NCBI RefSeq assembly: GCF_034424525.1
Contig: NZ_CP139979.1
Coordinates: forward strand, 3,187,001-3,251,000
Direction: 5' to 3'
DNA from: Sphingobium yanoikuyae
GTDB taxonomy: Bacteria; Pseudomonadota; Alphaproteobacteria; Sphingomonadales; Sphingomonadaceae
Length of the DNA: 64,000 nt
Below the pieces are notes generated by a model that was not told the origin of the DNA, did no database searches, and worked only from the letters and a program-made list of their open reading frames with translations. The position numbers were made by a program, and so were the translations under genes. Shown piece by piece: positions 6,206-64,000 of the stretch (within the stretch, counting starts at the first letter, position 1; the number at the start of each line of letters is the position of its first letter).

Positions 6206-7946
6206 TTTCCTTCTTCCCTTCCTTCAGAAGGTCGCGGACCACCAGGGCGGCGCGATCGGGGTCCTGCTTCACGAAGTTGCGGATCAGGTCGGCGCGCTGG
6301 GCATAGTCATAGGTGGACGAGATCATGTCGAGCGTCACCGGACGGCTGGGATCGGGATTTTCGGTCGCCTGCTTGGTCAGTTCGCCCGAGATTTCGCGAC
6401 CCAGGCGCTGCCCGGCTTCGGCGGTCTCCACGACCTTCGCTTCCTGGGCGGCGGCGCGGCGCTTGAGCAGCGGGCGACCGATGCCGAAGATCACCAGCAG
6501 CGCGACCAGCAGGGCCGAGACATTGCGGATCAGCGGCGACATCCAGTCGGCCTCATACCAGGGGGCCTTGACCTCTTCGGCCTTGGCGAAGCTGCGGGCC
6601 GACAGGGCGACGACGTCGCCACGGGCCTGGTCGAAGCCGACGGCGCCCTTCACCAGCGCTTCCAGCGCGGCGATTTCCTGGGCGGAGCGCGGCTTGCCAT
6701 CGGCGCCGGTGTCGAGCGCGACGGCGACCGACAGGCGCTTGACCGTGCCGACCGCATCCTTCGTGACCGACACTTCACGGCCCAGCTCGAAGCTGCGGTT
6801 GAAGGTTTCCTCGGTCTTCATCGGCGGCAGGCCCGGCGTGGCCGGCTGCTGCTGTTCGGCCGTCTGGCCCTGCGTCACGGCCTGGCCGTTCGGGTTGGTC
6901 TGGGTCACGGTCGGGTTGACCGGCGCCTGGTTGCTGAGCGCGCCGGGGATGCCCGAAGCCTCGCCAGCCTTCTGACCACGCTCGTCCGACGACCAGCTGC
7001 CCTGCTCTGCACGCAGGCGCGCCTCGTCCTGGGGGAAGCTTTCGCGGGTCGCCTGGCGTTCGGCGAAATTCAGTTCGGCATGGACCTCGGCCGAGAATTT
7101 GCCGTCGCCCAGGATCGGGGTCAGCAGCGCAACCACCGACTGGCGATAGCGATCCTCGATCCGGGTCTGGATGGCGAGCTGGCGATCGTCGGCTGCATTG
7201 CCGTCATTATTGCTGAGCAGGCGGCCATTCTGGTCGACGACCGAAATATCTTCCGGATTCAGTTCCGGGATCGAAGAGGCGACGAGATGAACGATGGCGC
7301 TGACCTGTGCGTCAGTGAGCGTGCGGCCCTGCGACAGGCGCAGCATCACCGAGGCAGACGGCTTGGTGCGTTCGCGCAGGAAGACGCTGGGCGCTTCGAC
7401 CGCGAGATGCACCTTGGCGCTCTCGACGCTGTCGATCGCCTCGATCGTGCGGGCGAGATCGGTCTCGCGGGCGCCGCGCAGCTTCTCATTCTCGACCGCG
7501 CGGCTGGCGCCCATCGGCAGGCTGTCGATCATGCTGTTGCCGTCGGGCGCGCTCTTGGGCAGGCCCTGGGCGGCGAGCATCATCTTCGCCTTGAAATAGT
7601 CGCCTTCGCCAACGGTCATGCCGCCAGCGTTATCGAAGTCGTACTTGATGCCATTCTGGTCCAGCACCTGGGCGACGGCAGACTTGTCGCCATCGGGCAG
7701 GCCGCGGAACAGGTCGCGCTGCGGCGGTTCGCGCAGGGCCAGCCAGGCCGCGCCAGCCACCGCGACGGTGCCGAGCAGGCCGAGCAGCGGCAGGCTCTTG
7801 GCCACGGCCGGCTGCTTGATGAAGCCGGCGAAGCGTGCCTTGAGCGCGTCCACGCCCTTGGCATTGCCGAAGCTGGCACCGGTGACGGCCGGGAGGGCCG
7901 GGGCAGCGGCCGAGCCGCCATCGATGGTGAGTGCGTTCTCGCTCAT
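6198..7946 (-). CDS. fliF: flagellar MS-ring protein FliF
   Basis: 582 residues. The first membrane helix is near residues 52-70 (LPLLGLLGTVAVAGAAWLAL) and the second close to the C-terminus (ALLVALLVIFGIG). Between them lie the YscJ/FliF ring-building domains, with the FliF signature VHLAVEAPSVFLRER. The last residues are the cytoplasmic FliG-binding tail (DPDRAALVVRDLLKEG). FliF forms the membrane ring on which the motor and export gate assemble. It follows fliE with a 3-base gap. Confidence 0.96.
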   Translation of the reverse strand: MSENALTIDGGSAAAPALPAVTGASFGNAKGVDALKARFAGFIKQPAVAKSLPLLGLLGTVAVAGAAWLALREPPQRDLFRGLPDGDKSAVAQVLDQNGIKYDFDNAGGMTVGEGDYFKAKMMLAAQGLPKSAPDGNSMIDSLPMGASRAVENEKLRGARETDLARTIEAIDSVESAKVHLAVEAPSVFLRERTKPSASVMLRLSQGRTLTDAQVSAIVHLVASSIPELNPEDISVVDQNGRLLSNNDGNAADDRQLAIQTRIEDRYRQSVVALLTPILGDGKFSAEVHAELNFAERQATRESFPQDEARLRAEQGSWSSDERGQKAGEASGIPGALSNQAPVNPTVTQTNPNGQAVTQGQTAEQQQPATPGLPPMKTEETFNRSFELGREVSVTKDAVGTVKRLSVAVALDTGADGKPRSAQEIAALEALVKGAVGFDQARGDVVALSARSFAKAEEVKAPWYEADWMSPLIRNVSALLVALLVIFGIGRPLLKRRAAAQEAKVVETAEAGQRLGREISGELTKQATENPDPSRPVTLDMISSTYDYAQRADLIRNFVKQDPDRAALVVRDLLKEGKKENA

Positions 7947-57469: not shown

Positions 57470-59305
57470 GTGAACCATCAAGCGCTTGCATCTTTTATCT
57501 GGTCGGTCGCCGACCTTCTTCGCGGCGATTATAAGCAGTCGGAATATGGGCGCGTCATTCTCCCATTCACGGTGCTGCGCCGCCTCGATTGCGTGCTGCA
57601 ACCAACAAAAGCTGCGGTTCTGGCGGAGCTTGAAGCCAAGACGGCAATGGGCCTGAACCCTGAGCCCTTCCTCCTGCGTGCCGCCAAGCAGGGCTTTTAC
57701 AACACCGATCCGCTCGATCTCAGCAAGCTGATGGGCGATCAGGACAACATCCGCGCCAACCTCATCCGCTATGTCGAGGGCTTCTCCCCTGCGGTGCGCG
57801 ACATCTTCGAGCAGTTCGAGTTCCATGCCCAGATCGACCGGCTCGCCAAGACTGGGCTACTCTATCAGGTCACTGAACGCTTCGCTCGCATCGACCTTCA
57901 CCCGGACAGGGTGGACAATGCCGCGATGGGCCTCGCCTTCGAGGAACTCATCCGCAAGTTCGCTGAAATCTCGAACGAGACGGCGGGTGAGCACTTCACA
58001 CCGCGTGAGGTGATCCGCCTCATGGTCAACCTGCTGTTCGTTGAGGACGACGACGCGCTGACCAAGCCGGGGATCGTCCGCACCATCTATGATCCGACTG
58101 CGGGCACGGGCGGCATGCTGTCGATCGCGGGCGAGTATCTCACTGAGCACAACCCGCAGGGGCATTTGACCATGTTTGGTCAGGAACTGAACCCTGAGTC
58201 CTATGCCATCTGCAAAGCCGACATGCTCATCAAGGGACAGGCGATCGAGAACATCGCCCCCGGCAACACCCTGTCAGATGACGGGCATCCCGGTCGCACC
58301 TTCGATTATATGCTGTCGAATCCGCCTTTCGGCGTCGAGTGGAAGAAGGTCGAGAAGCAGGTCCGCGCCGAGCACGAGCAAAAGGGCTACGATGGTCGTT
58401 TCGGCCCCGGCCTGCCGCGCGTATCGGACGGCTCGCTGCTGTTCCTCATGCACCTGCTGTCGAAGATGCGCCCACTCAATGAGGGGGGCTGTCGGTTCGG
58501 GATTGTCCTCAACGGCTCGCCCCTGTTCACGGGCGGCGCGGGTAGCGGCGAAAGCGAAATCCGCCGTTATGTGCTGGAGAACGACCTCGTTGAGGCGATT
58601 ATCGCGCTGCCGACCGACATGTTTTATAATACGGGCATCTCGACTTATGTCTGGATCATCAGCAACCGGAAGCCGGAGGCACGCCGGGGCAAGGTCCAGT
58701 TGATCGATGCCTCCTCCATGTGGCGCAAGATGCGCAAATCCTTGGGCTCGAAGCGCAAGGAAATGTCGGACGCCCAGATCGCCACGGTGACCAAGCTGTT
58801 CGGCGGGTTCAATGAGGCGCAGCTTGCCATCAGCTTCGACGCGGACGGCCGGGAGATTGCGCGCGACGTGGTGATCGAAGGCGAGCCGGTGCCCCCAGCA
58901 CCGGAGGGCGGCAAGGTTAAGCTCGCGCCGCTGTCGCGCATCTTCCCGAACAGCGCCTTCGGCTATCGAACCATCACCGTCGAGCGGCCGCTGCGCGACG
59001 ATGCGGGCGAGATCGTGCTGGGCCAGCGTGGCAAGGCGAAGGGCAAGCCGCAGGCGGACAGCGCCCTTCGCGACACCGAGAATGTGCCGCTCAGTGAGGA
59101 TGTCGAGACCTATTTCGCGCGTGAGGTGCTGCCGCACGCGGACGATGCGTGGATCGACCACGACAAGACCAAGGTCGGCTACGAAATCCCGTTCACCCGC
59201 CACTTCTACGTCTTTGAGCCGCCGCGTCCGCTCGCCGAGATTGACGCCGATCTTGAGGCCGTCACTGACCGGATCAAGGGCATGCTGGAAGGGCTCGCGG
59301 CGTGA
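57470..59305 (+). CDS. hsdM: type I restriction-modification system methyltransferase HsdM
   Basis: 611 residues from a GTG at 57470 preceded by GGGGGAT. N-terminal helical HsdM region, then [14 protein letters not shown] (173-186), SAM-binding DPTAGTGGM (208-216) and catalytic SNPPFG (283-288). It methylates adenine in the recognition site and forms the M2S core with HsdS. The GTG follows an AT-rich spacer. Its stop overlaps the hsdS start by four bases. Confidence 0.96.
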
Positions 59306-61254
59306 GCTTTCCGTCATATTCATCATATCAAGACAGCGGGGTGGAATGGCTTGGTGAGGTGCCGAGCCATTGGACAGTCACCGGACTAAAGCGCGCATTT
59401 TCCATCGCGGGTGGTTCCACGCCTAAGTCAGATATCGAGGATTATTGGGGTGGTGATATCCCATGGATCACCCCCGGTGATCTCAGCAAGCTGAGCACTA
59501 AGTTCATTTCCGATACGGCGAGGAAGATCACAGCCAGTGGGCTGGCGTCATGCGCGGCATCGCTAAGCCCAGCGGGTAGCATTGTTATTTCGACACGCGC
59601 TCCCATAGGATCGCTTGCCGTCACTGAGATCGGCGCAAGCACAAATCAGGGCTGTAAAACGCTCGTCGTTAAGGACGGCGTAAGCGCTACCTTTGGATAT
59701 TATGCTCTGTCGATCGCAACCGAGCAGTTGAATGTTCGCGGGAAGGGATCGACGTTTCTTGAGATTTCAGCGGATGATCTCGGCGCATTCGCGCTGCCGT
59801 TCCCGCCTCAATCTGAACAGATCGCCATCGCCGCCTTCCTCGACCGCGAAACCGCCAAAATCGACGCGCTCATTGAGGAGCAGCGGCGTTTGATCGCGCT
59901 GCTGAAGGAGAAGCGACAAGCCGTCATCTCCCACGCCGTCACCAAGGGCCTCGATCCGCACGCCCCTTTGAAGGACAGCGGTATCGAATGGCTCGGCAAG
60001 GTGCCCGCGCATTGGACTGTCACCAAGTTCTCACGCGCTATCGCCTTCCAAGAAGGCCCGGGCATTATGGCCGCTGATTTCCGCGAAGAAGGCATTCCAC
60101 TGATGCGCGTCGCTGGGGCGTCAGGTCGATGGGCATCGCTGGATGGCTGCAACTACCTCGATCCTGAAAAAGTGGCGACCAGATGGAAGCACTTTCGGCT
60201 CGAACTTGGCGACCTGATCATCAGCGGCAGCGCAAGTATGGGCACCGTGTGTGAGGTAGGCGCTGAGGCCGTTGGTGCTGTGCCATATACCGGGCTGATC
60301 CGCCTCACTCCGGTTGATGGAGCAACTACCCGCGACTTCGTGCGCGCAGTGGTGGGTTCATCAATGTTTTTTACGCAGATCGATCTCCTGAAGGCTGGCG
60401 CTACGATCCAGCACTTCGGCCCCACTCATCTCCGTCAGATGATCATCGCGTTGCCGCCTCTCGCCGAACAGGCCGCAATCTCAAGCCACGTTGATAAGCT
60501 GAACAGCCGCTGTTCCGATTTGATGCAGGAAGCCGAACAGACGATCGCGCTGCTCAATGAGCGCCGCGCCGCTCTCATTTCCGCAGCCGTCACCGGAAAG
60601 ATCGATGTTCGCGCCTCCGCCAAGGTGCTGCCGTTCCCGATTGAGCGCGCACGGGCACGCGGGCTTGTAGGCACCGAGATCATTGAGCGATCTGCGGGTC
60701 AGCCGACCTTCGGTCGCGTGAAGTTCCAAAAGGTGGTGTTTCTCGCAGAGGGGCATGTCGGCATCAGCGAGCTTGAAGGCTCTTACCTGCGTGAAGCCGC
60801 TGGTCCGCTCGATCGCGCTCTCATTGACGACATGGAGAGCGGCGCTCACCGGCTCGCTGGGATCGAGCGCGATCAACCGGGCGGCTCCGGCACCACCAAC
60901 ACCTACCGCCTTGGCCCAGAGCGCCGCGCGCACCGCCAAGAGCTTGCCGACTGGCTTGGCCCCGACCGCACAGCCAAGCTCGACAAGCTGATCACGGACT
61001 TCGCTGACTTGAGCACAAGGGGCGCTGAAGCTGTCGCTACTCTCTATGGCGTGTGGAACGACGCGCTCGCTGAGGGTGCCTCGCCGTCCGATGACGAGAT
61101 CATCAACGGCTTTCTGAACGATTGGCACAATGAGAAGCGCAAGAAGTTTCGTGCCAGTGATTTACCTGAGTGGCTGGGGTGGATGCGCCGCCACGGCATC
61201 GTGCCCAACGGCTCCGGTCCCAAGAGCGCGCGACAGATTGGAGCGCTGCTGTGA
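59302..61254 (+). CDS. hsdS: type I specificity subunit HsdS with extra C-terminal domain
   Basis: 650 residues, much longer than the usual 400-450. Two target-recognition halves each begin with the family motif: [16 protein letters not shown] (11-26) and [16 protein letters not shown] (225-240). Each is followed by a conserved helix ([40 protein letters not shown]). After residue 441 there is a 210-residue extension with [17 protein letters not shown] (471-487) and [10 protein letters not shown] (498-507), reminiscent of the Panacea/phage-associated (SocA-like) fold. The extension could add a regulatory or protein-binding function. ATGA overlap with hsdM. Confidence 0.9.
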
Positions 61255-62183
61255 GCCCAGTGGTCGGCCGCTCGTTGGAGCTTTACTACATCGACGGCCG
61301 CCCGGACGGCATGGTCACCGCCGAACTGTTCAACTGGACCGGCCACGTCCTGCTGTTCCCGCGCACCCAGTTGAGCGCGGCGCTTGCCCGCAGTGAGGCC
61401 AGCTATGCAGGCGTCTACCTGCTGCTGGGCGACCAGAACGGCGAGCCCTTCGCCTATATCGGTGAGGGCGAGGACATCGGCGCGCGCATCCGCCAGCATG
61501 ACGTGCGCAAGGAATGGTGGACCAGCGCCGTGCTCGTCACCGCCTCCGCCAACAAGCTCAACAAGGCGCATGTCCGCTACCTCGAAGCGCGGCTGATCGC
61601 GCACGCCAAGGCGATTGGGCACACGCCGCTCGACAATCTGACCGCGCCGGTGCTGCCGATCCTCAGCGAAGCCGATATCGCCAAGATGGAGGCGTTTCTC
61701 GAAAACCTGTTGATTGTTCTTCCGGCCGTGCGGGTGGACATGTTCATACAGCGCGCTCGTTCCCATCGGCCCACCGCTCCGGCGACGCCGGGTCGGACGA
61801 TCGCCGATCCGCAGACAATCAGCGCAGGCGGCACGCGCTTCGTGCTGGAAGCGCGGAAACATGGTCTGCGCGCATCGGCGGTTCTCACTGATGGTGAGTT
61901 CGTCGTTGAGGCTGGATCAATGGGCAGACGCGAATGGACTGGTCTCGACCACCATACCTACGCCTCGCTCTATGCGGAGCTTCGCCGGTCGGGCGTGCTC
62001 ACTGAACAGGGTGCGCATTGCGTGTTCACGCAGGATTACGCTTTCCGCAGCCCGAGCGCCGCAGCAGCGGTTGTCAATGGCAGGGCATCGAACGGCCAGA
62101 TCGACTGGCGCACCGCTGACGGTGGCCTGACCTACAAGGACTGGGAAGCGCGTCAGGTCGCCGCGCCCGAGGGGACAGCCTGA
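61251..62183 (+). CDS. GIY-YIG nuclease family protein with DUF4357 domain
   Basis: 310 residues from a GTG at 61251 that overlaps the hsdS stop (GTGA) and has GGAG eight bases upstream. A GIY-YIG-type core is at about 53-82 (AGVYLLLGDQNGEPFAYIGE, then GARIRQH) and the supporting Glu is in YLEARLIAHAK. The C-terminus (VNGRASNGQIDWRTADGGLT) matches DUF4357. Such proteins occur in type I restriction loci. The role is not settled; it may nick or guard DNA. Confidence 0.82.
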   Translation: MSPVVGRSLELYYIDGRPDGMVTAELFNWTGHVLLFPRTQLSAALARSEASYAGVYLLLGDQNGEPFAYIGEGEDIGARIRQHDVRKEWWTSAVLVTASANKLNKAHVRYLEARLIAHAKAIGHTPLDNLTAPVLPILSEADIAKMEAFLENLLIVLPAVRVDMFIQRARSHRPTAPATPGRTIADPQTISAGGTRFVLEARKHGLRASAVLTDGEFVVEAGSMGRREWTGLDHHTYASLYAELRRSGVLTEQGAHCVFTQDYAFRSPSAAAAVVNGRASNGQIDWRTADGGLTYKDWEARQVAAPEGTA

Positions 62184-63268
62184 TGCCGGTCTACGAGGTC
62201 AATGACGGAACGCTCATCGCGGCGAACCCGACCCGCTTCTATGTCGAGGGCCTGCGCGAGCGTCAGGATATCCAGCGGATGCTGCGGGATCAGATCGCGG
62301 TGTTGGGTGAAGACCTGCTGGTGCTGTCAGACGAATATGGCGGGTGGATCGACAGCAACAGGCGTATCGACCTGCTCTGCCTCGACCCTGAGGCCAACCT
62401 CGTCGTCGTCGAACTCAAGCGCGATGATGCGGGCCACATGGAGCTTCAGGCGATCCGCTACGCAGCGATGATCGCGCGCATGACTTTCGCTGAGGCGGTC
62501 GATGCCCACACGCAATATCTGCGGCGCTGCGGCCAGAGCGGCGAGGATGCCGAGGCCAAACTGCTCGCCTACCTCAACTGGCAAGAGGCCGAGCAGGAGG
62601 AGTTCGGCAGCAGCGTTCGTATCATCCTTGCCTCAGCGGCATTTAGCAAGGAACTGACGACCACGGTGCTGTGGCTCCGTGAGCAAGGGCTCGACATCAG
62701 TTGCATCCGGCTGAGCCCATACAAACTCGGCGACGGGCGATTGCTGCTGGATGTGCAGCCGATCATCCCGCTGCCCGAAGCAACCCAGTTCCAGACGCAG
62801 ATCGGGCTCAAGCGGCAGGCCGAGCAGAAGGCGAAGGTGGAGCGGCACGAGGTTCGATATGAGTTCTGGCAGGGCCTGCTCGCTCTCGCGGCTGAGAAGA
62901 CGCCGCTGCATGCGGGGCGCAGCCCGTCGAAGGACAACTGGATTTCAGCCTCAGCGGGGCTGGCAGGTTTCACCTTCGTCTACACGATCCGCCAGCGCGA
63001 TTCTCAGGTCCACCTGTGGATCGACGACAATCAGGCGTTCTTCCTCAAGCTCGAAGCCGATCGTGCTCTCATTGAAGGCGAGTTTGGCGGCGATCTCATC
63101 TGGAAACGCGAAGAAGGCCAGCGCGGCACATTGATCGGCGCGTTGGTTGAGGGCGGATATCGTTCCGACCGGGAGGATTGGCCCAAAGTGCAGCAGGCCC
63201 TCGTCGATGCGATGTTGCGACTTGAGCGGTTGCTGAAGCCCCGCCTCAATCAGTTGAAGCAGGGGTGA
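62183..63268 (+). CDS. PD-(D/E)XK nuclease-like protein with DUF4268 domain
   Basis: 361 residues, overlapping the previous stop by one base (TGATG). The nuclease core is RRIDLLCLDPEANLVVVELK (60-79) with Asp63 and Glu77-x-Lys79, followed by Gln89 in QAIRYAA. This is the NucS/RecB-like arrangement. The C-terminal third (YEFWQGLLALA to LIWKREEG) matches DUF4268. Predicted DNA cleavage activity next to hsdR suggests an added effector of the locus. Confidence 0.8.
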   Translation: MPVYEVNDGTLIAANPTRFYVEGLRERQDIQRMLRDQIAVLGEDLLVLSDEYGGWIDSNRRIDLLCLDPEANLVVVELKRDDAGHMELQAIRYAAMIARMTFAEAVDAHTQYLRRCGQSGEDAEAKLLAYLNWQEAEQEEFGSSVRIILASAAFSKELTTTVLWLREQGLDISCIRLSPYKLGDGRLLLDVQPIIPLPEATQFQTQIGLKRQAEQKAKVERHEVRYEFWQGLLALAAEKTPLHAGRSPSKDNWISASAGLAGFTFVYTIRQRDSQVHLWIDDNQAFFLKLEADRALIEGEFGGDLIWKREEGQRGTLIGALVEGGYRSDREDWPKVQQALVDAMLRLERLLKPRLNQLKQG

Positions 63269-63272
63269 GGCG

Positions 63273-64000
63273 TTGAGCATCCATAAGGAAATCCGTTTCG
63301 AGGACGAAATCTGCGCTCACCTCGCGGAGCATGGCTGGCTCTACGAACCCGGCAGCGCCGCGTTTTACGACCGCAAGCGGGCACTGTTCGCGCCCGATCT
63401 CGTCGCGTGGGTGCAGGAAACGCAGCCGAAGGTCTGGGAGTCACTGAACCGCAGTCATGGCGCAGGCGCTGAGTCCGCGCTGCTCGATCGGGTGCGCAAG
63501 CAGATCGACGATCGCGGCACGCTGGATGTCATCCGCCACGGCGTGGAGATGGTCGGCGTGCGGGGCATGATCTCGCTGGCCCAGTTCAAGCCCGCAATGG
63601 GCATGAATCCCGACATCATCGCCGCCTATCAGGCGAACCGCCTGCGCGTTGTGCGGCAGCTTCGCTACTCAGTGGCGAATGAGAACTGCTTCGATCTGGC
63701 GCTGTTCCTCAATGGCGTTCCCGTCGCGACCGCCGAGTTGAAGACGGACTTTACCCAGTCGATCACGGACGCCATCGATCAGTATCGGTTCGATCGCCTA
63801 CCCCGACCAAAAGGCGGCAACGCTGAGCCGTTGTTGACCTTCCCCAGCGGGGCGCTTGTCCACTTCGCAGTGAGCAACAGCGAGGTGCATATGACCACCA
63901 AGCTGGCAGGGCCGACCACGCGCTTCCTTCCATTCAATAAGGGCGATGCAGGCGGCGCGGGCAATCCGCTCAATGAGCACGGGCACCGCACCGCCTATCT
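63273..64000 (+). CDS. hsdR: type I restriction subunit HsdR, N-terminal part (cut by window end)
   Basis: 242 codons are visible, from a TTG at 63273 (MSIHKEIRFEDEICAHLAEH) with GGGGTGAGG just upstream. The N-terminal endonuclease fold is clear: CFDLALFLNGVPVATAELKT (139-158), with Asp141, Glu155 and Lys157 as PD-(D/E)XK residues, then DAIDQYRFDR. The ATP-dependent translocase part lies beyond the window. Four bases separate it from the previous gene. Confidence 0.9.
   Translation, partial: MSIHKEIRFEDEICAHLAEHGWLYEPGSAAFYDRKRALFAPDLVAWVQETQPKVWESLNRSHGAGAESALLDRVRKQIDDRGTLDVIRHGVEMVGVRGMISLAQFKPAMGMNPDIIAAYQANRLRVVRQLRYSVANENCFDLALFLNGVPVATAELKTDFTQSITDAIDQYRFDRLPRPKGGNAEPLLTFPSGALVHFAVSNSEVHMTTKLAGPTTRFLPFNKGDAGGAGNPLNEHGHRTAY

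Follow-up and report, generated by a model that had tools for sequence, protein, structure and literature searches.

The DNA analysed here (the window) is a stretch of 64,000 nucleotides from Sphingobium yanoikuyae (assembly GCF_034424525.1, contig NZ_CP139979.1, positions 3,187,001 to 3,251,000 of the forward strand). It carries a type I restriction-modification operon in which two genes of nuclease type, encoding a GIY-YIG/DUF4357 protein and a PD-(D/E)XK/DUF4268 protein (hereafter, the GIY and DUF4268 proteins), are embedded between hsdS and hsdR. From comparison of sequences and gene neighbourhoods, we consider it probable that the hsdS-hsdR junction of this complete operon is an accessory slot which holds autonomous, co-expressed restriction nucleases, and we regard this as the best reading of the locus. 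Each of the two proteins would combine a catalytic domain (GIY-YIG or PD-(D/E)XK) with an accessory domain (DUF4357 or DUF4268, respectively), both would be made together with HsdM, HsdS and HsdR, and each is gained, lost and reordered independently of the other and of HsdM and HsdR. Most likely, each nuclease would act as a separate restriction factor against phage DNA that HsdRMS cannot attack, for example, modified DNA, with DUF4357, which is weakly RAMA-like, and the exchanged DUF4268 domain as the recognition parts. The least certain part of this proposal, which we put forward only tentatively, is that DNA modification triggers the nucleases.

All five genes, in the order hsdM, hsdS, GIY, DUF4268 and hsdR, are open reading frames on the plus strand (Table 1), with junctions of -4, -4, -1 and +4 bases, in agreement with the overlaps and gaps of 1 to 4 bases given in a preliminary description of this DNA. 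Specifically, hsdM and hsdS overlap by 4 bases (59302-59305); the GIY gene starts at the GTG within a GTGA at the hsdS stop (61251), again with a 4-base overlap; the GIY and DUF4268 genes share one base (62183); and 4 bases separate the end of the DUF4268 gene (63268) from the TTG start of hsdR (63273). The complete hsdR, read from the genome, ends at window-equivalent position 66395 and encodes 1040 amino acids, so that the type I gene set is complete, with open frames for HsdM, HsdS and HsdR.

The GIY protein is matched by the PADLOC profile PDLC04923 (PDC-S14) over nearly its full length (residues 2-305; E 3.6e-112), and its only convincing domain match is DUF4357 (Pfam, E 5.7e-18). Residues G54, Y56, Y69, G71, R79, H83, E112 and N129 do not vary among the relatives that have a letter at these positions (80-81 of 83 rows; the other rows have gaps). 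What we take to be the GIY-YIG active-site motif, namely the GIY and YIG tyrosines followed by an arginine, a histidine, a glutamate and an asparagine, is kept in the family. The window protein itself scores below the Pfam GIY-YIG model and is absent also from the PF01541 search of its own genome; among 30 aligned relatives, at E up to 1, PF01541 is matched by 19 (best 1.8e-5), DUF4357 by all 30, and RAMA by 11. An hhalign comparison of the GIY alignment with two GIY-YIG proteins of the same genome gave a weak match (E 0.0062, probability 6%), with E 0.32 for a DUF4268 control. Sequence searches at E up to 10 found no solved-structure relative of the GIY protein; the only hit of its profile among structures, a branched-chain aminotransferase at E 0.11, was taken as chance. 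An ORF of about 755 amino acids containing GIY (L031:8636-10903) is a possible fusion or the product of an over-long start, and relatives of the protein were found in two of 50,697 phage records (MT835479.1:38621-39541, 39% identity; PV036410.1:52664-53494, 28%).

The PADLOC profile PDLC04909 (PDC-S11) similarly covers nearly the full length of the DUF4268 protein (residues 1-356; E 6.6e-109), which also matches the DUF4268 domain of Pfam (E 1.6e-22) and, under the Pfam cut-off, NucS_C (E 8e-4). Residues E51, D63, E77, K79, Q89 and Y93 are invariant in all 121 DUF4268 proteins aligned, and D63, E77 and K79 probably constitute the D...E-X-K catalytic triad of PD-(D/E)XK nucleases; the earlier assignment of Asp63 and Glu77 to the active site thus appears correct, with Lys79 to be added. 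In a profile alignment with E 0.28, the three residues fall on residues 160, 174 and 176 of NucS (2vld), and no solved-structure relative of the DUF4268 protein was found by sequence at E up to 10. The invariance of the active-site residues in both proteins makes nuclease activity likely.

An unexpected result was the exchange of the C-terminal domain among DUF4268 proteins. In the six closest relatives of the operon, HsdM, HsdR, both domains of the GIY protein and the nuclease domain of the DUF4268 protein are, where present, 80-99% identical to those of the window, and the HsdS recognition domains share 19-33% identity with the window, with one at 81% (L012). The DUF4268 C-terminal domain is 100% identical to that of the window in L012, 91% in L014, 80% in L011 and 33% in L013, where the nuclease part is 95% identical. 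Across the 121 sequences, 264 pairs share 90% identity or more in the nuclease domain, and in 110 of these the C-terminal domain is at least 30 points lower; the reverse, a C-terminal domain at least 15 points above the nuclease domain, occurs in 23 of 7260 pairs, from 18 sequences, and these reverse pairs indicate exchange rather than fast change alone. For GIY, no reverse pairs were found among 7021, which is a weak control because the set holds no pairs under 60% N-terminal identity. Exchange of this kind would be the pattern expected of a target-recognition part and is silent on the identity of the target.

The content of the slot was surveyed with HsdR as the anchor, so that the loci were not picked by the gene in question. 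The close HsdR set comprises 25 records: 10 from 396 genomes of the order (HsdR 70-100% identical, the window's own record included), two from 385 genomes of the class (67-68%) and 13 plasmid records (60-80%), with near-duplicates among them (H10-H13; H1 and H2). Eight kinds of slot content were observed. GIY is accompanied by an intact DUF4268 gene in five records (G000, G426, G438, G430 and G362; in G430, hsdS lies past the contig end and hsdR contains stop codons) and by a DUF4268 remnant in one (G458); GIY stands alone in H8 and lies between hsdM and hsdS in H1 and H2; DUF4268 occurs without GIY in four (G314, G449, G701 and H9); six hold other genes only (G447, G493 and H3-H6); four near-identical records (H10-H13) have RhuM between hsdM and hsdS and an empty hsdS-hsdR slot; and in two the slot is empty (G657 and H7). 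In total, GIY occurs without an intact DUF4268 gene in four of the 25 records, and neither gene is present in 12. Among more distant HsdR matches in the order (39-47%; 22, of which 21 were examined), none has GIY or DUF4268 in the slot, which is empty in eight and contains other ORFs in 13; in one of these loci (G361), a DUF4268 gene immediately follows hsdR. Overall, a GIY gene was found in seven of 199 genomes of the host family, a patchy distribution, and a DUF4268 match, partial matches counted, in 14 of 396 genomes of the order.

The inserted genes other than GIY and DUF4268 include members of defence families. Pfam matched four of 14 scanned, namely DarT between hsdM and hsdS, and Mrr_cat, AAA_21 and TIR in the slot; PADLOC matched two of nine (PDC-S18 and PDC-S02); and annotation adds AbiEii and VapC. 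The two genes of the window lie inside the operon and occupy positions in which they are exchangeable with other genes.

A complementary survey was anchored on GIY. A contig scan with the GIY protein alignment confirmed 144 stretches, of which the best 80 were kept, and genes in the surrounding DNA were assigned by means of profiles derived from the window's own proteins, taking the earliest start of each ORF (which produces artefactual overlaps such as -85). In 41 of these 80 loci, GIY is found between hsdS and hsdR on the same strand, a figure that leans to close relatives because only the best 80 were kept; only hsdR is near GIY in two loci and only hsdS in two, and in the remaining 35 no hsd gene recognised by the window-derived profiles lies near GIY on the same strand, although one of these (L067) has an hsd set about 2 kb away on the opposite strand. 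A DUF4268 gene is present in 11 of the 80 loci, including the 110-amino-acid remnant of L015, which lacks residues 68-317, and a distant relative in L046; among the 41 slot loci, near-full-length DUF4268 ORFs number nine and remnants one. The DUF4268 gene follows GIY in L011, L012, L014, L015, L021, L028, L033 and L087, and also in L013 with an extra gene between them, and precedes it in L046 and L064. Four of the 80 loci (L011, L012, L014 and L087) reproduce the gene layout of the window exactly, without further insertions. Of five plasmid matches picked from 35, four have GIY in type I loci of varied gene order, two of these in Actinomycetota, and one does not. The two surveys share organisms (L015 is G458, L028 is G362, L087 is G438 and L033 is G430).

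Several individual loci illustrate other arrangements. In Azospirillum brasilense (L172 and L184), GIY lies between hsdM and hsdS and not between hsdS and hsdR; in another S. yanoikuyae locus (L197), the order is hsdR, hsdM, a hypothetical gene, GIY and hsdS; and the Roseomonas rosulenta locus L021, which has both GIY and DUF4268, carries a DarT toxin gene (6937-7587) between hsdM and hsdS.

These distributions bear on the preliminary description, which had taken the five genes as a fixed order and, if conserved, a distinct defence architecture. A search of genomes for the gene order, made with HsdR and with GIY as anchors, found the extra genes absent or separately placed in many related hsd loci. 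The order is not fixed, given that both intact genes occur in only five of the 25 close HsdR records and can stand in either order, and the rarity of the exact layout speaks against a distinct conserved architecture, as does the fact that the embedding idea is published and both families are PADLOC candidates. The view that the nucleases are not chance neighbours held in part: both are intact genes of nuclease type and GIY recurs in type I loci, but they are most likely not fixed parts of the restriction enzyme.

Useful cases are provided by natural pairs of closely related operons. Seven plasmid records of Roseomonas mucosa have HsdR 95.5-100% and HsdM 92-100% identical (one HsdM is cut by the record end), HsdS that are 40-45% identical unless they are the same, and a relaxase gene 52 bases downstream; they carry nothing, GIY alone, DUF4268 alone, or RhuM, the latter between hsdM and hsdS. 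In the four records compared, DNA similarity falls at the end of hsdM and, except for short conserved stretches within hsdS, resumes only where hsdR begins, which suggests that hsdS together with its passenger was swapped by recombination in the conserved flanks. On the R. mucosa plasmid pSKB0092-2 (L198:6495-9195), hsdM, hsdS and DUF4268 are annotated, with a short hypothetical ORF and an IS5 transposase where hsdR is expected.

The same operon is found in Sphingomonas zeae (L019), with 81-89% DNA identity to the window outside the hsdS recognition parts and another gene in place of DUF4268, the boundaries of the replacement lying no more than 10 bases from where GIY stops and hsdR starts. 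The replacing gene represents a third recurrent family of the slot, with 10 ORFs at nine loci, two of them from the same organism (L013:8335-8868, L019:6295-6870, L024 and L028:9456-10004, L137, L138, L141, L142 and L143). Seven of these ORFs encode 173-191 amino acids and three encode 247-274; they are located before or after GIY and before DUF4268, and had no match in Pfam (five ORFs scanned) or PADLOC (four scanned). The R. mucosa plasmids, and likewise L019 and the window, have similar restriction enzymes and differ chiefly in hsdS and in the embedded gene, which makes the contribution of two uncharacterised candidate defence families testable.

Alternatively, both nucleases could be dedicated extra subunits or effectors of this particular HsdRMS complex, as the preliminary description had concluded from the translational coupling of the five genes. 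We consider this unlikely. The tight junctions are compatible with it, but the same -4 junction is found for hsdR itself and for ORFs of other families. Among the 44 HsdR-anchored loci that include hsdS (some of them near-duplicates), 35 have an ORF of about 100 amino acids or more at -4 on the hsdS stop and nine have none; the ORF at -4 is hsdR in 13, GIY in three, DUF4268 in one and, in 18, an ORF outside the five profiles, a few of which may be chance ORFs. In the GIY-anchored set, 35 of the 42 slot loci, the window's own counted, have an in-frame start codon at -4 relative to the hsdS stop. Because the -4 junction is common whatever follows hsdS, coupling points to co-translation at most and not to a complex, and genes tightly packed in a restriction operon cannot, on that ground, be assumed to act in a shared complex. 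The recurrence of GIY in the hsdS-hsdR slot and its presence in four of the five plasmid matches also favour dedicated subunits, as do the positive Mantel correlations of GIY with HsdR (r = 0.50) and HsdM (0.38; in both cases, 0 of 199 shuffles as high), compared with 0.21 for GIY and HsdS (3 of 199 shuffles) and 0.76 for HsdM and HsdR; one GIY row in this analysis and in the tree below (L063) is a minus-strand ORF that was picked in error, the longest labelled ORF being taken, and it has a very long branch. Against dedicated subunits stand the HsdR and HsdM of more than 92% identity that occur with and without either nuclease, the close HsdR records that lack both genes, and the GIY loci without a same-strand hsd gene nearby. 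By these comparisons, GIY moves more than the core hsd genes, yet is not independent of them.

It is also conceivable, albeit unlikely, that of the two genes only DUF4268 serves in defence, and that the GIY protein is a nuclease with a general function in DNA repair or maintenance that accompanies restriction loci, for example, to process ends made by HsdR. One argument for this possibility is a second unexpected finding, a GIY gene in a trp-moa-lexA locus. In 12 of the 80 loci, all labelled Roseobacteraceae or Paracoccaceae in the tree (L074-L079, L084-L086 and L088-L090), the GIY stretch also carries trpC, moaC and moeA, with trpD in 11 of the 12 and lexA in 11; the domain names were derived from L075 (6972-12880), and adjacency was seen in L075 and others. 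These orthologs are full length, form one well-supported group in the tree (99) and retain all motif residues in the 11 checked, and the PDC-S14 profile matches the L075 protein (E 3.8e-111) about as strongly as the window copy. Consequently, PADLOC calls of PDC-S14 in these hosts may be housekeeping genes. A lack of association of PDC-S14 with phage resistance in one strain panel, unlike PDC-S11, points the same way in the excerpts of that report (PMC10855318). However, elsewhere the GIY family is found in restriction loci or other defence-like loci, it is patchy in the host family, and its context changes frequently: on a quick tree, which is not a careful maximum-likelihood search, the slot label changes 11 times, with at least six changes forced by well-supported branches. 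The defence-like neighbourhoods include a PLDc protein and a large helicase in L067 (9986-17934), genes of matching size in L068, a helicase and a DUF4391 gene in L054, and an N6_N4 methylase a few genes away in L027.

A further option, which we regard as quite improbable, is that the slot is an effector bay, in which the GIY protein would read the adenine methylation made by its own HsdM and thereby provide a second, R-independent cutting arm, and the DUF4268 proteins would be target-swapping nucleases, the specificity of which is changed by domain exchange, much like that of HsdS. Finally, it is very unlikely that both genes are passengers without defence function, either neutral inserts or selfish nucleases, that are maintained by their position in a translated operon: several relatives, both close and distant, have an empty slot and the DUF4268 gene is cut down to a 110-amino-acid remnant in L015/L135, but the catalytic residues are invariant in the relatives aligned, unlike in neutral inserts, and several of the other inserted genes belong to defence families.

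Several observations weigh against the accessory slot of autonomous restriction nucleases that we favour. The slot is not shown to be defence-only, given that 10 of the 14 inserted genes scanned with Pfam and seven of the nine scanned with PADLOC were unmatched. The GIY orthologs of the trp-moa-lexA loci belong to the same PADLOC family in a context that does not suggest defence, and the correlation of GIY distances with those of HsdR and HsdM implies some co-inheritance. The RAMA match of the GIY relatives is weak (best E 0.0011), and GIY proteins, too, show a drop of at least 30 points in the C-terminal part, in 130 of 1063 close pairs. According to the excerpts of two published studies, P. 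aeruginosa PDC-S14 is spread over susceptible strains (57% of 14; PMC10855318), and TgvAB, a system embedded in a type I operon (see below), is 10-100 fold less protective alone than the whole cluster, which its authors blame on expression (PMC11411939).

The HsdS of the window additionally has a C-terminal extra domain of 202 residues that, among the ORFs of 81 loci, is present in 13 HsdS and in no other ORF. It resembles the C-terminal ends of the PADLOC profiles PDLC03196 (Specificity_I) and PDLC03039 (MTase_I), the latter of which indicates that some HsdM end in a similar domain, and matches solved structures at E 0.4 and above only. A role of this domain as a docking site for GIY was considered and is not supported, given that it is present in only 13 of the 42 slot loci and was not found as a separate ORF. 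Downstream of hsdR, at a distance of about 4 kb, lies a resolvase gene (L002:17378-17920, window-equivalent 70378-70920), suggesting a mobile segment.

Table 1. Genes and domains of the restriction operon (window positions) and the profile matches on which their annotation is based.
Feature	Position	Strand	Basis
hsdM, type I N6-adenine methyltransferase subunit, 611 aa, GTG start	57470..59305	+	Pfam HsdM_N, N6_Mtase; PADLOC MTase_I, E 2e-272
hsdS, specificity subunit, 650 aa, GTG start; two target recognition domains and a C-terminal extra domain	59302..61254	+	Pfam Methylase_S, two stretches; PADLOC Specificity_I
C-terminal extra domain of HsdS, residues 441-642, optional among relatives	60622..61227	+	No Pfam match
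Putative GIY-YIG/DUF4357 nuclease gene, 310 aa, PADLOC candidate PDC-S14	61251..62183	+	PDLC04923, E 3.6e-112; DUF4357
DUF4357 domain of the GIY-YIG protein, residues 243-291	61977..62123	+	Pfam PF14267
Putative PD-(D/E)XK/DUF4268 nuclease gene, 361 aa, PADLOC candidate PDC-S11	62183..63268	+	PDLC04909, E 6.6e-109
DUF4268 domain, residues 224-354, exchanged module	62852..63244	+	Pfam PF14088
hsdR, TTG start, cut by the window end	63273..64000	+	Pfam HSDR_N, SWI2_SNF2, T1R_D3-like

In principle, the operon belongs to a known class, that of genes embedded in restriction loci. PDC-S14 and PDC-S11, the profiles of which (PDLC04923 and PDLC04909) match the window proteins over nearly their full length, were reportedly put forward by Payne et al. 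2024 in a guilt-by-embedding survey. The idea that restriction loci harbour embedded candidate defence genes is already published; in the excerpts of the literature cited here, most PDC families are presented as candidates that still lack validation, identified by their embedding inside known defence systems (PMC10855318, PMC12988326), and several PDCs as single-gene candidates (PMC12988326), whereas the operon of the window has two PDC families side by side. The same excerpts state that PDC-S14 overlaps GAO_29, apparently restriction-like in action, and that, in P. aeruginosa, PDC-S11 was largely found in phage-resistant strains (90% of 10; PMC10855318). No description of the GIY/DUF4357 and DUF4268 pair was found in the portions of the literature searched, which included PMC12813430, PMC11090510 and PMC12839542, with bioRxiv and supplements outside its scope.

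At the level of domains, DUF4268 and DUF4357 are both listed, in the excerpt concerned, as extra domains of GmrSD homologs (PMC4619093). GIY-YIG-RAMA fusions, named elsewhere as possible type IV enzymes (PMC11037411), share the GIY-YIG domain with the window protein, and about a third of the relatives of the latter also match RAMA; they differ in that RAMA is matched only weakly by these relatives, and that DUF4357 is the sole match of the window protein. With the NucS endonuclease (PDB 2vld), the DUF4268 protein shares the catalytic D..ELK block, but the matches score below curated cut-offs, extend over no more than about 35-75 residues and do not include the C-terminal DUF4268 domain.

At the level of gene arrangement, the RptR-RMS island of enteropathogenic E. 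coli likewise has defence genes, DarTG2, between hsdS and hsdR (PMC12255303, in excerpt), but these form a toxin-antitoxin pair, whereas the genes of the window are of nuclease type. A parallel to what we propose is TgvAB of Vibrio cholerae VPI-2, also two extra genes inside a type I operon, which, according to the excerpted report, protects against modified phages independently of the restriction activity of HsdR, constituting a separate restriction system that does not need the HsdR nuclease (PMC11411939). TgvAB consists of DUF262/DUF1524 proteins that need each other, whereas the proteins of the window belong to other families, each of which is found without the other.

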